Source: SAR202 cluster bacterium (lineage in GTDB: Bacteria > Chloroflexota > Dehalococcoidia > UBA6926 > VFHL01). Taken from it: 64,000 nt of DNA. A model generated the notes under the pieces. It had not been told where the DNA came from, made no database searches, and worked only from the letters and a program-made list of their open reading frames with translations. The stretch covers positions 62,001 through 126,000 of the forward strand of contig VFHL01000004.1 of assembly GCA_009392005.1 (NCBI GenBank), given 5' to 3'. The translations under genes were made by a program, and so were the position numbers. The stretch's first letter is position 1. The number at the start of each line of letters is the position of its first letter. Positions 2,617 to 8,403 of this stretch are shown here, piece after piece.

Positions 2617-2945
2617 TACAATTGCATGATAAATGATTCTTGTTGTGGAATCACTATTGCGACCTGAGGCGAAATGGTTAAGCTTTTGTTGAATAGAGTA
2701 TTTGGGTATTGATGGAGTGGCTTAGATTGTGTACTGGAAATAGGATTTACAGGCGCTTACATACTCTGGTGGATGACACACAACAAAGGTAATAATATTA
2801 GGATTGTGAGTTCCAATTGGAAAAGGCGTGTTGTTTAGTCTACAAATTAACCTAAATATATGTATTATGGTGTACATACAATTCGGAGAGCGCCACCCCC
2901 CCGCTAATCGAAACAAATTAATTACCATCAGAAACCAGGAATAGC
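2617..2945. other. Intergenic 329 nt between divergent genes
   Basis: This gap separates the HerA-like gene (minus) from the desaturase operon (plus) and must hold both promoters. It is AT-rich and has a C7 run at about 2894-2902. AGGA at 2937-2940, 5 nt before ATG 2946, is the ribosome site of the desaturase. I found no convincing paired -35/-10 boxes, no tRNA and no strong hairpin. The one minus-strand open frame in it (about 68 codons) has no coding character. Confidence 0.5.
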
Positions 2946-4016
2946 ATGTATTTAATCAATGACCAATCACCATATAGATCAGTTCTCGATTCATACGTGG
3001 CAGAACAGATTCCCAAGTTGAAGACAGTGCAAGAATCAGATCTTGAGTCCATGTTTGAAAATTTCAAACCTGAAGATTTGATTTCGTATTCGAATGTTAG
3101 TGCTAATGAGTTAATTGAAACATTCCGATTGTCCTTGATTACTGAGTCTTTGACTGACCAATATGCCGATACCTATATTACTGGGGCGAAGTTGGCGGAC
3201 GCTGAATGGCTAGGGGAATACATTACAAAGTTTTGGGTTCCCGATGAGCTCGGGCATGCGGATCCTTTCAAAAATATATTGCTCGATTTTGGTTTCAGCC
3301 AAAAATCATTGGACAGTGATATCAAAGAGGCAAAAGAAACAACAGAGTATTTAGATGCGCATGAATCAGGTTTGCATCCAATTGCTTTAACAACTTATGG
3401 AATGCTTCAAGAGTGTATTACGGATTATTGGTATGAACTTCAGGGGCAATTTTTCCCAAGGACGAGTAATACATCAAAGGTGATCAGTAAGGTGAAGGGT
3501 CGGGAAGCGTTGCATACAGTGCAATTTAGGCATTTGACAGCGCTGCAATTAGAAGCCGATCCCTCGCTCATCACAGAAGTGATTCATGCGGTGAACAAAT
3601 TTCAAATGCCATCGAATCACATTCCTTTGGTAAAAGAGATTGAAGAGAAAACTCAGGAAATGATTCCCCGCATGAATGGTGAGGTCATTACACTTTTGAG
3701 GCGGATTATTCGGCACCTAAACGTTGCTTTGAATGATAAAGATATGCTTGGCAAACTTTTGGCTGAATACGCAACGTCACGAGAGCAACGATTCATCTCT
3801 CTCTTACCAAACTATGTAGTGATGGAGGCATTAAATCGCATAACCGGTGGTTATGGGTTGATTGGTGAAATCGTTTTGGATGCATTGGGTTTGACCGCAA
3901 ATGAGGCTGAGGCGGAAACAACAAGGATTGAACGCGTACAGAACTATTTCCGCAATATCATTAAGAGATGGTTGAGAGAACGCTTGGAATTAGAGGGGTT
4001 TCTTGCGAGCAAATAA
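2946..4016 (+). CDS. Soluble di-iron acyl-ACP desaturase-like protein
   Basis: A 356-aa, all-helical protein with two EXXH iron-ligand motifs, E101-L-G-H104 (in VPDELGHADPF) and E187-A-L-H190. Further Glu residues (E67 or E88, and E156) are placed as expected for the ferritin-like di-iron fold of soluble acyl-ACP desaturases (FA_desaturase_2). There are no membrane segments, which separates it from membrane desaturases. Family members remove two hydrogens from an acyl chain using O2 and reduced ferredoxin. It heads an operon with two CFA-type methyltransferases, a flavoprotein and DUF1365, so the likely role is to make the double bond that the later enzymes modify. Other ferritin-like oxygenases remain possible. 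AGGA 5 nt upstream supports ATG 2946. Confidence 0.75.
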   Translation: MYLINDQSPYRSVLDSYVAEQIPKLKTVQESDLESMFENFKPEDLISYSNVSANELIETFRLSLITESLTDQYADTYITGAKLADAEWLGEYITKFWVPDELGHADPFKNILLDFGFSQKSLDSDIKEAKETTEYLDAHESGLHPIALTTYGMLQECITDYWYELQGQFFPRTSNTSKVISKVKGREALHTVQFRHLTALQLEADPSLITEVIHAVNKFQMPSNHIPLVKEIEEKTQEMIPRMNGEVITLLRRIIRHLNVALNDKDMLGKLLAEYATSREQRFISLLPNYVVMEALNRITGGYGLIGEIVLDALGLTANEAEAETTRIERVQNYFRNIIKRWLRERLELEGFLASK

Positions 4017-5253
4017 AGTGGGCAAAAGAATGGGTTTAACAAATATCGCAAGAAAAATATTACAACGTCAAATCAACCTCTTAGGATGGCTTTTACATTT
4101 CGTTTTGCTGAGGCGTATTCGCAATGACAGGGTTTCGGTTGGACTCCCAAGAGCAGTCGAAACTAACAGTAATTCAAATCCAAAAAAATTGGTTCATTTG
4201 AACGTAAATGAGTGGTCTTTTTTCTTAGACCTCATTTTCGGCTATGATCTCGGTTTTGCCGAATCCTATATGCAAGGTAAATGGGACACCGAAGATTTAA
4301 CCGCACTTTTTAGAAATTTAAGGGCGCATTCGGATAAGAAGTCCAAGTCATCAATCGGCAACTATGCGCCCCTGAAGTTATATTCCAAATTTTGGCAACG
4401 TTTACGAGTCAGGAACACTCCCTATTGGTCGAAGAAAAATATCCATGGCCATTATGATTTTAGCAATCAATTTTTCGCAAACTTTCTCGATAAAGGCATG
4501 ACATATTCTTGTGCAAGGTTCGATGAAGATAATGCGACGCTTGAAGATGCACAAGAATACAAGATTGCTTCGCTTTTCAAGGATAGTGGACTAAAGCGGA
4601 ATGACAGGATTCTTGATATCGGTTGTGGTTGGGGACGTTTAGCGATCAAAGCGGCTGAGGAATATGACTGCGAAGTTCTTGGTGTTACATTGTCTGAAGA
4701 TCAATACGAATATGGATTGGAACGTGTTCGCGAACGTGGTTTAGAAGACCGCGTGGAAATTCTCTTGCAAGATTACAGATCTGTAACAGGAGAATTTGAT
4801 CATGTGTATTCCATTGAAATGCTCGAAGCCGTGGGTGAAAAAGGTCTCGAGGAATTTCTGATGCGGAGTCGTTCCTTACTCGTTCCAGGTGGGACATTAA
4901 ATCTACAAGTGATAACCATTCCTAATGATCGTTATGATGAATACAAGAGCAACTGTGATTTCATCCAGCGATACATTTTCCCGGGTGGTTTGTTGCCGTC
5001 GCTAGAGAAAATCAATGAAGCAATTGATCAAACAGGCCAGTTTGAGCTCGAGGCTGAAAGATCAATAGGTCGACACTACGCACGTACACTTAGATTTTGG
5101 AAAGAGAATCTTTTGCAGAATCTTCCTGTGGTGAAAGAACTGGGTTTTCATGATCGCGATATACGGCGATTTTTGTACTACTTTAGTTATTGTGAAGCAG
5201 GTTTTTTGGATCAATTGATTGACGATTATCAACTGCGCCTTAGGCGGACATAA
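4003..5253 (+). CDS. Cyclopropane-fatty-acyl-phospholipid synthase family protein
   Basis: A 416-aa protein (up to 9 residues fewer if a later start is used) with full CFA synthase architecture. It has an N-terminal lipid-binding part (about 1-140), the signature HYDFSNQFFANFLDKGMTYS near residues 150-169, and SAM motif I LDIGCGWG near 205-211. The acidic YSIEMLEAVG segment follows near 270 and the C-terminal FIQRYIFPGG near 305. CFA synthases transfer a methylene from SAM to the cis double bond of phospholipid acyl chains. The start is uncertain: TTG 4003 has GAGGGG just upstream and overlaps the desaturase by 14 nt, while GTG 4018 and ATG 4030 are alternatives. It shares the operon with the desaturase and a second, divergent CFA-like gene. 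Confidence 0.88.
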   Translation: MRANKVGKRMGLTNIARKILQRQINLLGWLLHFVLLRRIRNDRVSVGLPRAVETNSNSNPKKLVHLNVNEWSFFLDLIFGYDLGFAESYMQGKWDTEDLTALFRNLRAHSDKKSKSSIGNYAPLKLYSKFWQRLRVRNTPYWSKKNIHGHYDFSNQFFANFLDKGMTYSCARFDEDNATLEDAQEYKIASLFKDSGLKRNDRILDIGCGWGRLAIKAAEEYDCEVLGVTLSEDQYEYGLERVRERGLEDRVEILLQDYRSVTGEFDHVYSIEMLEAVGEKGLEEFLMRSRSLLVPGGTLNLQVITIPNDRYDEYKSNCDFIQRYIFPGGLLPSLEKINEAIDQTGQFELEAERSIGRHYARTLRFWKENLLQNLPVVKELGFHDRDIRRFLYYFSYCEAGFLDQLIDDYQLRLRRT

Positions 5254-6300
5254 ATGTGGTACGAAAGCCTGATTGATCGTGGGATTCTGCCTCGTGTTGT
5301 TTTGCGTTACGCCATTAAATATGGATTAGGCCGCTATGCTCGCATTGTAGAGCGGTTAACAGAGGAGGGCGTTGAACGACAACAGTTTAAATTTCGAGCA
5401 GATTGTTTAAGCAAACCTATTGCAATTGATGTCGAAATAGCGAATTTACAGCACTATGAACTACCGGATGAACTCACTCGCTCTGTTCTCGGGTCACATT
5501 TGAAATATAGCGGCTCATTTTGGAATGAACCTACACAATCCCTGAATCAAATTGAGTTTGCGACATTAGAACAATATGACATGCGGGCAGAAGTTAAATC
5601 TGGGCAAAGCATATTAGATATAGGTGCTGGTTGGGGCGCGCTTACCCTTTATCTTGCAAAAAAATACCCGGAATCTGTTATAACAGCACTGACCAATTCG
5701 TTGACGCAGAAAAATTATATTGAGAAAGCGGCTGTTGAACGGAATCTTCACAATATAAAGGTGGTGAAGGAAGATATTGCTAGGATTGATTTTGAAAAGA
5801 AATTCGATCGGATTTTCGCTATCGAAATTTTTGAACATACACGCAACGCTAAGTCATTGTTTGAGAAGATATCCAGTTGGATGAATCCAGAAAGCAAACT
5901 GTTTTTTCAAGTTTTTTCGCATAAAAAATACCCCCAAATATTCGATGATGTTGCAACCTCTTGGATGGCGAAGCACTATTTCACTTCTGGTATGATGCCC
6001 TATGTTGGTTTTTATGATGATATTCAAAACGTATTCAGGCAAGAAAGGCAATGGTATGAAAGTGGTATCCATTATCATAAAACGCTTGAATTTTGGTTGA
6101 AGAATCTTGATCAAAAAAAACCACAGTTATTGAAACGGGTAACCAACAATGAAGCAAAGCGATCAATGAATGTTCAAATTAATCGCTTTGAACTTTTTAT
6201 ACTCATTTGCTCAGAGTTGTTTCGCTACAATTCTGGCCAAGACTGGCACTTAATGAACTATTTGTACGCTCCACGTCAGATCACGGACGAAGAAAAATGA
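5254..6300 (+). CDS. Second CFA-like SAM methyltransferase (coclaurine N-methyltransferase-like branch)
   Basis: A 348-aa class I methyltransferase whose ATG follows the previous stop codon with no gap. SAM motif I is LDIGAGWGALTLYLA near residue 120. The preceding LKYSGSFW and the following TNSLTQKNYI resemble the CFA-related branch that includes plant coclaurine N-methyltransferases. It lacks the HYD-x-N-x-FF signature of its upstream neighbour, so the two are not recent duplicates. In other bacteria a methyltransferase of this sort sits beside CFA synthase, COG2907 and DUF1365 genes. From context it probably also methylates an unsaturated acyl chain, but the product (cyclopropane, methyl branch or other) cannot be read from sequence. 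Confidence 0.82.
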   Translation: MWYESLIDRGILPRVVLRYAIKYGLGRYARIVERLTEEGVERQQFKFRADCLSKPIAIDVEIANLQHYELPDELTRSVLGSHLKYSGSFWNEPTQSLNQIEFATLEQYDMRAEVKSGQSILDIGAGWGALTLYLAKKYPESVITALTNSLTQKNYIEKAAVERNLHNIKVVKEDIARIDFEKKFDRIFAIEIFEHTRNAKSLFEKISSWMNPESKLFFQVFSHKKYPQIFDDVATSWMAKHYFTSGMMPYVGFYDDIQNVFRQERQWYESGIHYHKTLEFWLKNLDQKKPQLLKRVTNNEAKRSMNVQINRFELFILICSELFRYNSGQDWHLMNYLYAPRQITDEEK

Positions 6301-7565
6301 AAATTGGGATCGTTGGTGCGGGTATTTCCGGTATGTCCGCTGCATACGAATTACAGAATAGTCACTCTGTGACGTTATTGGAGGCGCATGACCGTATAGG
6401 AGGCCATGCGAATACCATAGATGTGATTGATCCAAATGGTGAAAGGGTGTCGATTGACACTGGATTCATTGTATTCAATAGAACAAACTATCCGGAATTT
6501 TGTGCATTTTTGGAAAACATTGGAACTAAATTTGTAGATTCGGATATGTCGTTTTCATATTCGAATTATGGATCCGGATATGAATACGCTGGGACGATAA
6601 AAGGTTTGTTACCACGGTTGAAGTTTTTTGATGTTGTCAATCAGATTCGATTTCTCATGAACGTGTACAGGTATTCCAAATTATTGGCTGATCGTCGTGA
6701 GCAAATTGAGAGAAGAGGAATGACGCTCGGAGAGGCGCTCAAGCTCTTGAATTGCCCGGATTCAAGTATTGAAAACTATTTTTTGCCGATCGCGTCTACG
6801 ATCTGGTCATGTAAAGATGATGAATCTCGAGGTATGCCAGCGACGTCATTCATTGATTTTTTCTCGAATCATGGATTGCTCCAGTTACGCAACCGACCCC
6901 AATGGTTGACGATCTTAGGGGGTAGTAAAGAATACTTAGCAGATTTCAAATCAAAATTTCATGGTGATATTAAAATGGGCTTCCGGGTGAAGAAACTTAT
7001 AGTTGACGACAATAAAACAGTCGTAACTTCAGAGAAGAATGAAAAGATGGAATTTGATTGTATAGTACTTGCTATACATGCTGATGATGTATTGGATATC
7101 GACGCAAACATTTCAGATGCTAACAAAAAAATTTTGGAGAGTTACGAGTATTCTTCGAACTCAATTTACGTTCATAAAGATGTCCGTCTAATGCCTCGGA
7201 ATCGAAATGTATGGGCGTCTTGGAATTGCATTAGATCTGATGATAATTCACGCTTAACTTCAAATAAGATTGCTGGTCATACGACGTATTATATGAATCG
7301 ATTGCAAGCAATCAATTCTCCAGATGATTACTTTGTGACATTGAATCCGACAGCTGAACCGGCGATGAATAAGTTGATCTATAAAACACACTATTCCCAT
7401 CCTGTTTTGAAGCATAGTGTGGAAACCCAGACGCATAATTTTAATGTACTGAATGATAACCGAAGCGTGTTTTTTTGCGGAGCACACTTTGGGTATGGTT
7501 TCCATGAAGATGGCTTCAAATCCGGAAATATTGTGGCTGATTTGATAACCTCATTTGGAGATTAG
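6297..7565 (+). CDS. FAD/NAD(P)-binding amine-oxidase-like protein (COG2907)
   Basis: A 422-aa flavoprotein. The start is ATG 6297, which overlaps the previous stop as ATGA and places the Rossmann motif GIVGAGISGMSAAYEL at the very N-terminus. The E35-x7-GG pattern (LLEAHDRIGGHANTID) binds the ribose of FAD, and GAHFGYGFHEDGFKSG near the C-terminus is the second FAD contact. Homologues (COG2907) are recurrently adjacent to DUF1365 and CFA synthase genes. In actinobacteria and alphaproteobacteria, other flavoproteins act with CFA-like methyltransferases to give saturated methyl-branched or furan fatty acids. A redox step on the methylated acyl chain is therefore the best inference. Confidence 0.85.
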   Translation: MKIGIVGAGISGMSAAYELQNSHSVTLLEAHDRIGGHANTIDVIDPNGERVSIDTGFIVFNRTNYPEFCAFLENIGTKFVDSDMSFSYSNYGSGYEYAGTIKGLLPRLKFFDVVNQIRFLMNVYRYSKLLADRREQIERRGMTLGEALKLLNCPDSSIENYFLPIASTIWSCKDDESRGMPATSFIDFFSNHGLLQLRNRPQWLTILGGSKEYLADFKSKFHGDIKMGFRVKKLIVDDNKTVVTSEKNEKMEFDCIVLAIHADDVLDIDANISDANKKILESYEYSSNSIYVHKDVRLMPRNRNVWASWNCIRSDDNSRLTSNKIAGHTTYYMNRLQAINSPDDYFVTLNPTAEPAMNKLIYKTHYSHPVLKHSVETQTHNFNVLNDNRSVFFCGAHFGYGFHEDGFKSGNIVADLITSFGD

Positions 7566-7569
7566 GATT

Positions 7570-8403
7570 ATGCGATCAGCTGTTTTAAGAGGCGCACTGA
7601 CCCACCAACGACACCAGCCGTTTAAGCATGATTTTGTATATTCTCATTCGATGCTCTTAATTGAAATCAGCGACTTAGAGGACACACGGCGATTATCCAG
7701 GTTGCTTGGTTACAATAAGTGGAGAGTCTTTTCAATTTATGATAAATATCATCTCGCCGACAGCTCTGCAAAAGACCTTAAATCAAAAGTAGCGGAGATA
7801 TTCTTCGAGCATTCTCTTCACACGTCCAAAAACGAGACGTATGTATTAACCACTCCCAGTTTTTTTGGGTACACCTTTAACCCTGCGACATTCTATTTTC
7901 ATGTAGCAAGTGACGGGGCATTTCTAGCGGCGGCTGTAGAAGTAAGTAACACGTTTGGAGAAACTCATCTTTATAAACTTGATAAATTAGTCAGTAATGA
8001 ATCTGATCGGTTTGTATTTGAACATAAAAAAGAGTTTCACGTTTCACCATTTATTCAACGACATGGTGATTACCGATTTGTGTTTGAGTTAAATCAAGAT
8101 GGAATTTCGTTACAACTTGACTTGATACAACAAGATGAAGTTGTGATTTCTACTTGTTTTCGTGCGAAAAGATTCAGTTTGAATAGCTTAGAGTTGGTTA
8201 AATCTAGTATCGCTATTTCGCGAGTGATCCTGTTCACTGAAGCGCGGATATTGTTTCAGGCTTTTAAGCTGTTATTTGTCCGAAAGGCGCGATTTTATAC
8301 TAAACCAGATCCGTTGAACGGCACGTCGATATCACCGGTTCCGTCTTTGATAAAAAAGCTGATTTTTCCATTCAAATCAAAAAATGATTATGAACGTTCA
8401 TAA
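7570..8403 (+). CDS. DUF1365 family protein
   Basis: A 277-aa protein. The start is ATG 7570, with GGAG and AGGATT upstream, and it lies 4 nt after the flavoprotein stop. Family hallmarks are the N-terminal GALTHQRHQPFKHDFVYS, the central segment FGYTFNPATFYFH and EVSNTFGETHLY. DUF1365 (COG3496) has no established biochemistry but is nearly always next to COG2907 flavoproteins and CFA synthase. It ends the operon and its 3' end nearly touches the convergent alpha/beta hydrolase gene (9 nt apart). It is inferred to act on the same lipid substrate. Confidence 0.88.
   Translation: MRSAVLRGALTHQRHQPFKHDFVYSHSMLLIEISDLEDTRRLSRLLGYNKWRVFSIYDKYHLADSSAKDLKSKVAEIFFEHSLHTSKNETYVLTTPSFFGYTFNPATFYFHVASDGAFLAAAVEVSNTFGETHLYKLDKLVSNESDRFVFEHKKEFHVSPFIQRHGDYRFVFELNQDGISLQLDLIQQDEVVISTCFRAKRFSLNSLELVKSSIAISRVILFTEARILFQAFKLLFVRKARFYTKPDPLNGTSISPVPSLIKKLIFPFKSKNDYERS

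Follow-up and report, generated by a model that had tools for sequence, protein, structure and literature searches.

Five intact open reading frames, all on the forward strand, occupy positions 2946-8403 of the window, the whole stretch of 64,000 nucleotides that was analysed. The first gene, DES (2946..4016, 356 amino acids), is predicted from its ligands and a profile match to encode a highly divergent soluble di-iron protein resembling acyl-ACP desaturases. It is followed by CFA1 (4030..5253 from an ATG, with an alternative TTG at 4003), coding for a putative UfaM-like SAM-dependent fatty-acyl methyltransferase, and by CFA2 (5254..6300), whose product appears to be a second methyltransferase, similar to FufM and placed in the coclaurine-N-methyltransferase-like branch. 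The last two genes would encode a UfaD-like flavoprotein of the COG2907 type, a predicted methyl-branched acyl desaturase (6297..7565), and a UfaO-like DUF1365 protein, a predicted furan-forming oxygenase (7570..8403 from an ATG, alternative TTG at 7555). With ATG starts the junctions measure 13, 0, -4 (ATGA) and +4 nt; the overlaps or gaps below 5 nt of the original prediction hold for three of the four junctions, and not for the first, where the preferred ATG leaves the 13 nt. Pfam searches confirmed a CMAS domain in CFA1 (274 bits) and CFA2 (107 bits), Amino_oxidase/NAD_binding_8 in the flavoprotein and DUF1365 (PF07103, E = 4.5e-54) in the last protein. The operon proposed for these five genes is thereby confirmed. 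The host is an ocean bacterium of the SAR202-type Chloroflexota; its 1.6-Mb genome in 13 contigs is 94.9%-complete, was examined by protein-family searches and has SAR202 Chloroflexota as nearest named relatives.

Gene neighbourhoods were mapped at 11 loci retrieved with DES as query. The order DES-CFA1-CFA2-FAD-DUF1365 recurred in nine of them, all belonging to SAR202 and one broken at a contig end; in these nine other SAR202 loci the proteins are 35-64% identical to those of the window. At L014 the CFA1-CFA2-FAD-DUF1365 block is convergent with DES, and at L013 DES lies within a surface-sugar biosynthesis cluster. Distant DES homologues (26-31% identity) are found in DES-FAD-DUF1365(-CFA1) runs at L053, L057 and L058. 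Six loci (L054, L056, L059, L062, L063 and L064) have DES immediately 5' of CFA1 with no UfaD or UfaO, CFA1 is degraded at L055, and no CFA1 accompanies DES at L060 or L061, the latter a 4.4-kb contig; DES stands without any pathway gene at L013 and L060. The original prediction had named a desaturase-like gene unlinked in relatives as one observation that would refute it; by our own count, DES is linked to pathway genes in 22 of the 25 distinct Dehalococcoidia loci.

A survey of co-occurrence, one of the checks suggested originally, likewise came out in favour. Among 294 Dehalococcoidia genomes, DES was present in 16 and DUF1365 in 19, and both occurred together in nine, compared to 1.03 expected (hypergeometric p = 2e-8). 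As the gene order recurs in nine SAR202 loci and DES co-occurs with DUF1365, the association of the genes goes beyond chance. One family carries DES in 14 of its 16 genomes. The distance matrices of DES and CFA1 (18 loci) are correlated at r = 0.91 (permutation maximum 0.47), which vertical descent common to both could alone produce. In a sample of 400 Chloroflexota genomes the DES clade was found in Dehalococcoidia only, and plasmid records searched for it contained no DES relative.

The predicted furan fatty acid pathway

The chemistry of four steps towards furan fatty acids has been demonstrated in Alphaproteobacteria, where UfaM methylates 18:1 and shifts its double bond, UfaD desaturates to the methyl-diene, UfaO (DUF1365) uses O2 to form the furan, and FufM puts a second methyl on the ring (PMC7380195). 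Genes of the UfaM, UfaD and UfaO types lie together in one SAR202 operon. The flavoprotein is 32-35% identical to DUF1365-adjoining flavoproteins of Paracoccus, Phyllobacterium and Caballeronia, and the DUF1365 protein shares 27-30% of its residues with the proteins that hold the UfaO position in proteobacterial clusters, an identity low enough for a presumed UfaO-type protein that we count it against the furan reading. Counterparts of CFA1 and of the flavoprotein/DUF1365 pair occur in proteobacterial clusters adjoining sigma-E/ChrR, photolyase or lipocalin genes, and proteobacterial UfaD-UfaO-UfaM clusters repeatedly carry a CFA2-type gene too, adjoining sigma-E/ChrR or photolyase. The SAR202 operon includes no sigma-E/ChrR or DUF1295 gene, and a family search of the host genome found no photolyase. 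Since the four genes other than DES can each be paired with a characterised protein or branch (UfaM, FufM, UfaD and UfaO), we favour a dimethyl furan fatty acid as the predicted product, and the earlier view that the product is not predictable from sequence appears too cautious.

In the proposed route, DES would introduce a cis double bond into the saturated chain of an acyl-ACP. After passage of the chain to phospholipid, CFA1 would methylate one alkene carbon and move the double bond to yield a methyl-branched trans-monoene, which the UfaD-type flavoprotein would desaturate to a conjugated methyl-diene. The UfaO-type DUF1365 protein would close the furan ring with O2, and FufM-type CFA2 would add a second methyl to it; within the membrane, the product may scavenge singlet oxygen or serve as a signal. 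We infer the activity of each SAR202 enzyme and the position of the double bond from sequence comparison, and consider it likely that the operon represents a self-contained pathway to a (di)methyl furan fatty acid.

It is unlikely that the operon leads instead to methyl-branched unsaturated or saturated acids (e.g., 10-methyl), the flavoprotein reducing or isomerising the methylated alkene and DUF1365 being otherwise engaged. Such products would agree with the 10-methyl-branched, not furan, fatty acids reported for cultured SAR202 group I, and with 10-methyl C18:0 and probably 10-methyl C16:0 as major acids of the cultured SAR202 member Lucifugimonas (PMC10444878). The DES-CFA1 pairs that stand alone in six genomes of the class would also end at a methyl-branched monoene. 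The reductase of the 10-methyl pathway (BfaAB/TmsAB) is of the FAD_binding_4 type, whereas the operon flavoprotein belongs to the amine-oxidase family and had no FAD_binding_4 match in Pfam; moreover, that route offers no role for DUF1365 or for a FufM-type gene. Group I genomes were sought by their enolase-superfamily expansion, and G014, the sole genome with a group-I-like expansion, carries neither DES nor DUF1365. A link of the operon to the 10-methyl acids of cultured SAR202 was dropped, as the expansion occurs in no DES-bearing genome. Because no DES-bearing genome resembles group I, the lipid data of cultured SAR202 neither support nor refute the furan pathway.

The soluble desaturase-like protein

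Residues E67, E101/H104, E156 and E187/H190 are kept in 21 DES homologues of 26-62% identity (the E101 codon contains one ambiguous base), and the di-iron ligands follow the order E..EXXH..E..EXXH in alignment with canonical PF03405 members. No Pfam match of DES exceeded the cut-off: PF03405 appeared only at E = 0.027 with 13.7 bits, below its gathering score of 22.7, for which reason DES is termed here a remote relative of PF03405 and not a member. Its relatives at L053 (27.7 bits) and L061 (23.3 bits) exceed the same cut-off; 13 of the 21 family members match PF03405 at E <= 1, the best at 1e-7, and at least two pass. Profile comparison by hhalign with acyl-ACP-desaturase-like proteins (12 proteins from other Chloroflexota genomes, two of them confirmed PF03405) gave E = 1e-15 and a probability of 98.6%, with both EXXH motifs and the Glu between them matched. 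PDB sequence searches with DES or its profile returned spurious matches only.

A first structural model, built from a 12-sequence alignment, had weak Foldseek matches only (E of at least 0.016), and the model from the 21-sequence alignment brought a modest improvement. Its top nine matches are castor and ivy acyl-ACP desaturases, a weak fit with no E below 1.4e-3 and a TM near 0.5, which makes the evidence from the fold supportive and not conclusive. R2-like oxidases and an aldehyde-deformylating enzyme come next in the list, and together with that TM value they would favour DES being another di-iron oxygenase (a hydroxylase, R2-like oxidase or aldehyde-deformylating enzyme) that acts on a pathway intermediate, while the cis double bond has another origin. 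We regard this as quite improbable, given that the top nine fold matches and the profile match are all acyl-ACP desaturases, that six loci have DES with the methyltransferase alone, and that the 94.9%-complete host genome contains no match to PF00487 (membrane desaturase) or to PF07977 (FabA/FabZ). ACP and ketoacyl synthases were found in the host genome. As both PF00487 and PF07977 are absent, no source of unsaturated chains other than DES can be recognised in this organism, although another unsaturation route may lie outside the searched families or in the missing 5% of the genome. The evidence supports DES as a distant homologue of acyl-ACP desaturases, predicted to introduce the cis double bond. 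The dedicated soluble di-iron desaturase that had been proposed to feed the methyltransferase/flavoprotein/DUF1365 set gains support from ligands, linkage and profile match, and the self-contained route from saturated acyl-ACP from a host with no other recognisable way to unsaturation.

The two methyltransferases

CFA1 is 35-39% identical to the methyltransferase adjoining UfaD/UfaO in Proteobacteria and 24% identical to CFA2. It is predicted to be of the UfaM type on the basis of the proteobacterial UfaM-position proteins. The best solved structures for CFA2 are coclaurine, THP and pavine N-methyltransferases (E = 4e-53), followed by CFA synthases at E = 4e-20, and in proteobacterial FuFA/ChrR clusters the second methyltransferase shares 35-37% identity with CFA2. 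The plant protein AT4G33110 is presumably CNMT-like. FufM shares 38% identity with this protein (LIME1), and Arabidopsis has a UfaM-UfaD protein as well as UfaO and FufM homologues (PMC10940516); the identity of FufM to UfaM is only 26% (PMC7380195). In Chlamydomonas, two CFA-type genes, DUF1365 and DUF1295 are co-induced by singlet oxygen, and one of the two CFA-type genes is labelled coclaurine N-methyltransferase (PMC4067076). CFA2 would belong to the CNMT-like branch that contains FufM, an assignment made by branch and not by alignment to RPA0924. The prediction of a dimethyl furan depends on this homology by branch, and the dimethyl product specifically is held with less confidence than the furan pathway itself.

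At the position of the catalytic His of CFA synthases, which we take to be that of E. coli His266, CFA1, CFA2 and all aligned UfaM-position proteins have Gln. A stress-lipid cyclopropanation module with CFA1 and CFA2 as ordinary cyclopropane synthases, as their CMAS domains and the raised cyclopropane acids in E. coli with Halomonas UfaM (PMC12089945) could suggest, was rejected on account of this Gln and is highly improbable, CFA1 reaching 240 bits under the 400-bit cut-off of the CFA equivalog and CFA2 being nearer N-methyltransferases.

Candidate light control and relation to known systems

The regulatory side of the furan operon, with its repressors of the B12 photoreceptor type, had been missed by the original prediction. 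Of the nine SAR202 five-gene loci having upstream sequence, all but L011 (hence L004-L008, L010, L012 and L067, eight in total) have a predicted B12-binding/HTH_3 regulator close upstream. In those eight loci, the B12-binding/HTH_3 protein and a TIGR01777-like epimerase are divergent to a membrane protein of ~190 aa, after which DES follows. At terrestrial L053 the gene immediately 5' of DES encodes a MerR-B12 protein, and a related sequence is found nearby at L057. The genome of the window encodes two B12/HTH regulators, one of which, adjoining an epimerase, is located 27 kb upstream of the operon. The Wx9EH motif, which defines the B12 photoreceptors CarH/LitR (PMC8156234), is present in the B12 proteins inspected, namely those of L008 and L053 and both host-genome regulators. 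Cobalamin domains that respond to light have been reported in fusion with an HTH domain at either terminus (PMC11796333).

Eight of nine intergenic regions have the 8-mer ATAATACA in common. Upstream of the window operon, a putative promoter/operator element TGTATTATGGTGTA (2861..2874, forward strand) resembles the TGTAYTATRGNACA element that SAR202 relatives have between the divergent regulator and operon genes. No other site in the 329-nt intergenic region scores higher with the PWM, and ~0.03 such sites are expected there by chance, but the element ranks only fifth in the whole window. The resemblance of the TGTATTATGG element upstream of the window operon to the relatives' intergenic elements is weak and suggestive only, so that no argument here depends on it, and the element at 2861..2874 may be just a -10 box. 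Expression of the operon is probably released by light via a B12-binding HTH repressor, and we place less confidence in this inferred control than in the furan pathway. Inhibition of cultured SAR202 by light (PMC10444878) fits a need for photo-protection.

Our analysis points to a known pathway in a new form, to which a new module, the soluble desaturase, has been added and which is probably controlled by light. Dimethyl furan fatty acids are light-protective membrane lipids; furan fatty acids scavenge reactive oxygen and are present in fish and other marine life, and their microbial makers are, to our knowledge, poorly known. In abundance, SAR202 ranks with the foremost uncultured groups of the ocean. 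We tentatively suggest that SAR202 and related Dehalococcoidia might have a complete light-released route that starts at saturated acyl-ACP and ends at dimethyl furan fatty acids, with an undescribed desaturase clade serving only this route and a B12 photoreceptor-repressor with a C-terminal HTH. If so, these abundant bacteria would be a source of marine furan fatty acids. The furan pathway would be extended to Chloroflexota as a concrete gene set, with an enzyme proposed to supply its unsaturated precursor and with ties to candidate B12 light sensors, and the five-gene cassette could allow furan lipids to be produced in hosts that lack unsaturated fatty acids.

SAR202 has the same four enzyme types as the UfaM-UfaD-UfaO-FufM system of R. 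sphaeroides/R. palustris, which is tied to photo-oxidative stress and in which UfaD and UfaO are adjacent as well (PMC7380195). In contrast to the alphaproteobacterial pathway, which uses existing 18:1 and has UfaM and/or FufM located elsewhere, SAR202 combines all four types and a dedicated soluble desaturase in a single operon. Recruitment of a desaturase to this pathway has a precedent in the Acinetobacter plasmid NZ_CP090068 (L079), where desaturase, UfaD, UfaO, UfaM, DUF1295 and a second methyltransferase form one gene run comparable to that of SAR202; that cluster also has lipocalin genes, and its desaturase is of the membrane PF00487 type and unrelated to DES, in place of which SAR202 would use an unrelated soluble enzyme. 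With the PF03405 proteins (castor stearoyl-ACP desaturase and mycobacterial DesA) DES shares the di-iron ligand pattern, a similar length and an F-x-MP motif after the second EXXH helix, yet it is only ~12% identical to solved members and forms a separate Dehalococcoidia clade. The SAR202 regulators resemble CarH/LitR (PMC8156234) in their B12-binding domains, the Wx9EH motif and a location beside a photo-protective cluster, and differ from them in that their HTH is of the Cro/C1 type (HTH_3) and C-terminal, whereas CarH/LitR have an N-terminal MerR domain, found among the regulators examined in terrestrial L053 only.

Genes flanking the operon in relatives

In most SAR202 loci, the desaturase-like gene (DES) is immediately preceded on its 5' side by a conserved membrane protein of ~180-195 aa without a Pfam match (L004:9400-9972, L008:9354-9941 and L012:3973-4503, among others), which is missing from the window's operon. 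Several SAR202 loci carry, immediately 3' of DUF1365, a conserved, membrane-anchored-looking protein of 250-265 aa, likewise without a Pfam match (L004:15382-16143, L012:9883-10680); none was seen 3' of the window's operon. A pyrimidine dimer DNA glycosylase (PF03013, UV repair) is inserted just 5' of DES at L006:9525-9941.

DES loci lacking an intact methyltransferase, and a plasmid cluster

A DES homologue (41%; L013:7819-8868) lies within a glycan/nonulosonic-acid-like cluster with no methyltransferase close to it, and possibly represents a second use of this desaturase clade. Remnants of the methyltransferase CFA1 in two frames 3' of DES (L055:7788-7944, genome G031) reflect either a decayed gene or an assembly error. 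The Acinetobacter plasmid NZ_CP090068 (L079) bears a complete furan-fatty-acid-type cluster, including a membrane desaturase.

Fatty acid synthesis and B12-binding regulators in the host genome

No match to a FabA/FabZ-type dehydratase (PF07977) was found in the window's own genome, G000, which does encode ketoacyl synthases and an ACP. Near one of its regulators (L071:6015-7449, minus strand), Epimerase and Polyketide_cyc are two separate ORFs, whereas relatives encode one fused protein of ~480 aa, an epimerase with a C-terminal extension. Two B12-binding regulators of G000, at C4:35681-36583 (L071:7682-8584) and C6:187901-188869 (L072:7902-8870), combine Wx9EH with a C-terminal Cro/C1-type HTH. 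CarH differs from this pair in domain arrangement. Green-light sensing is a candidate role for both.
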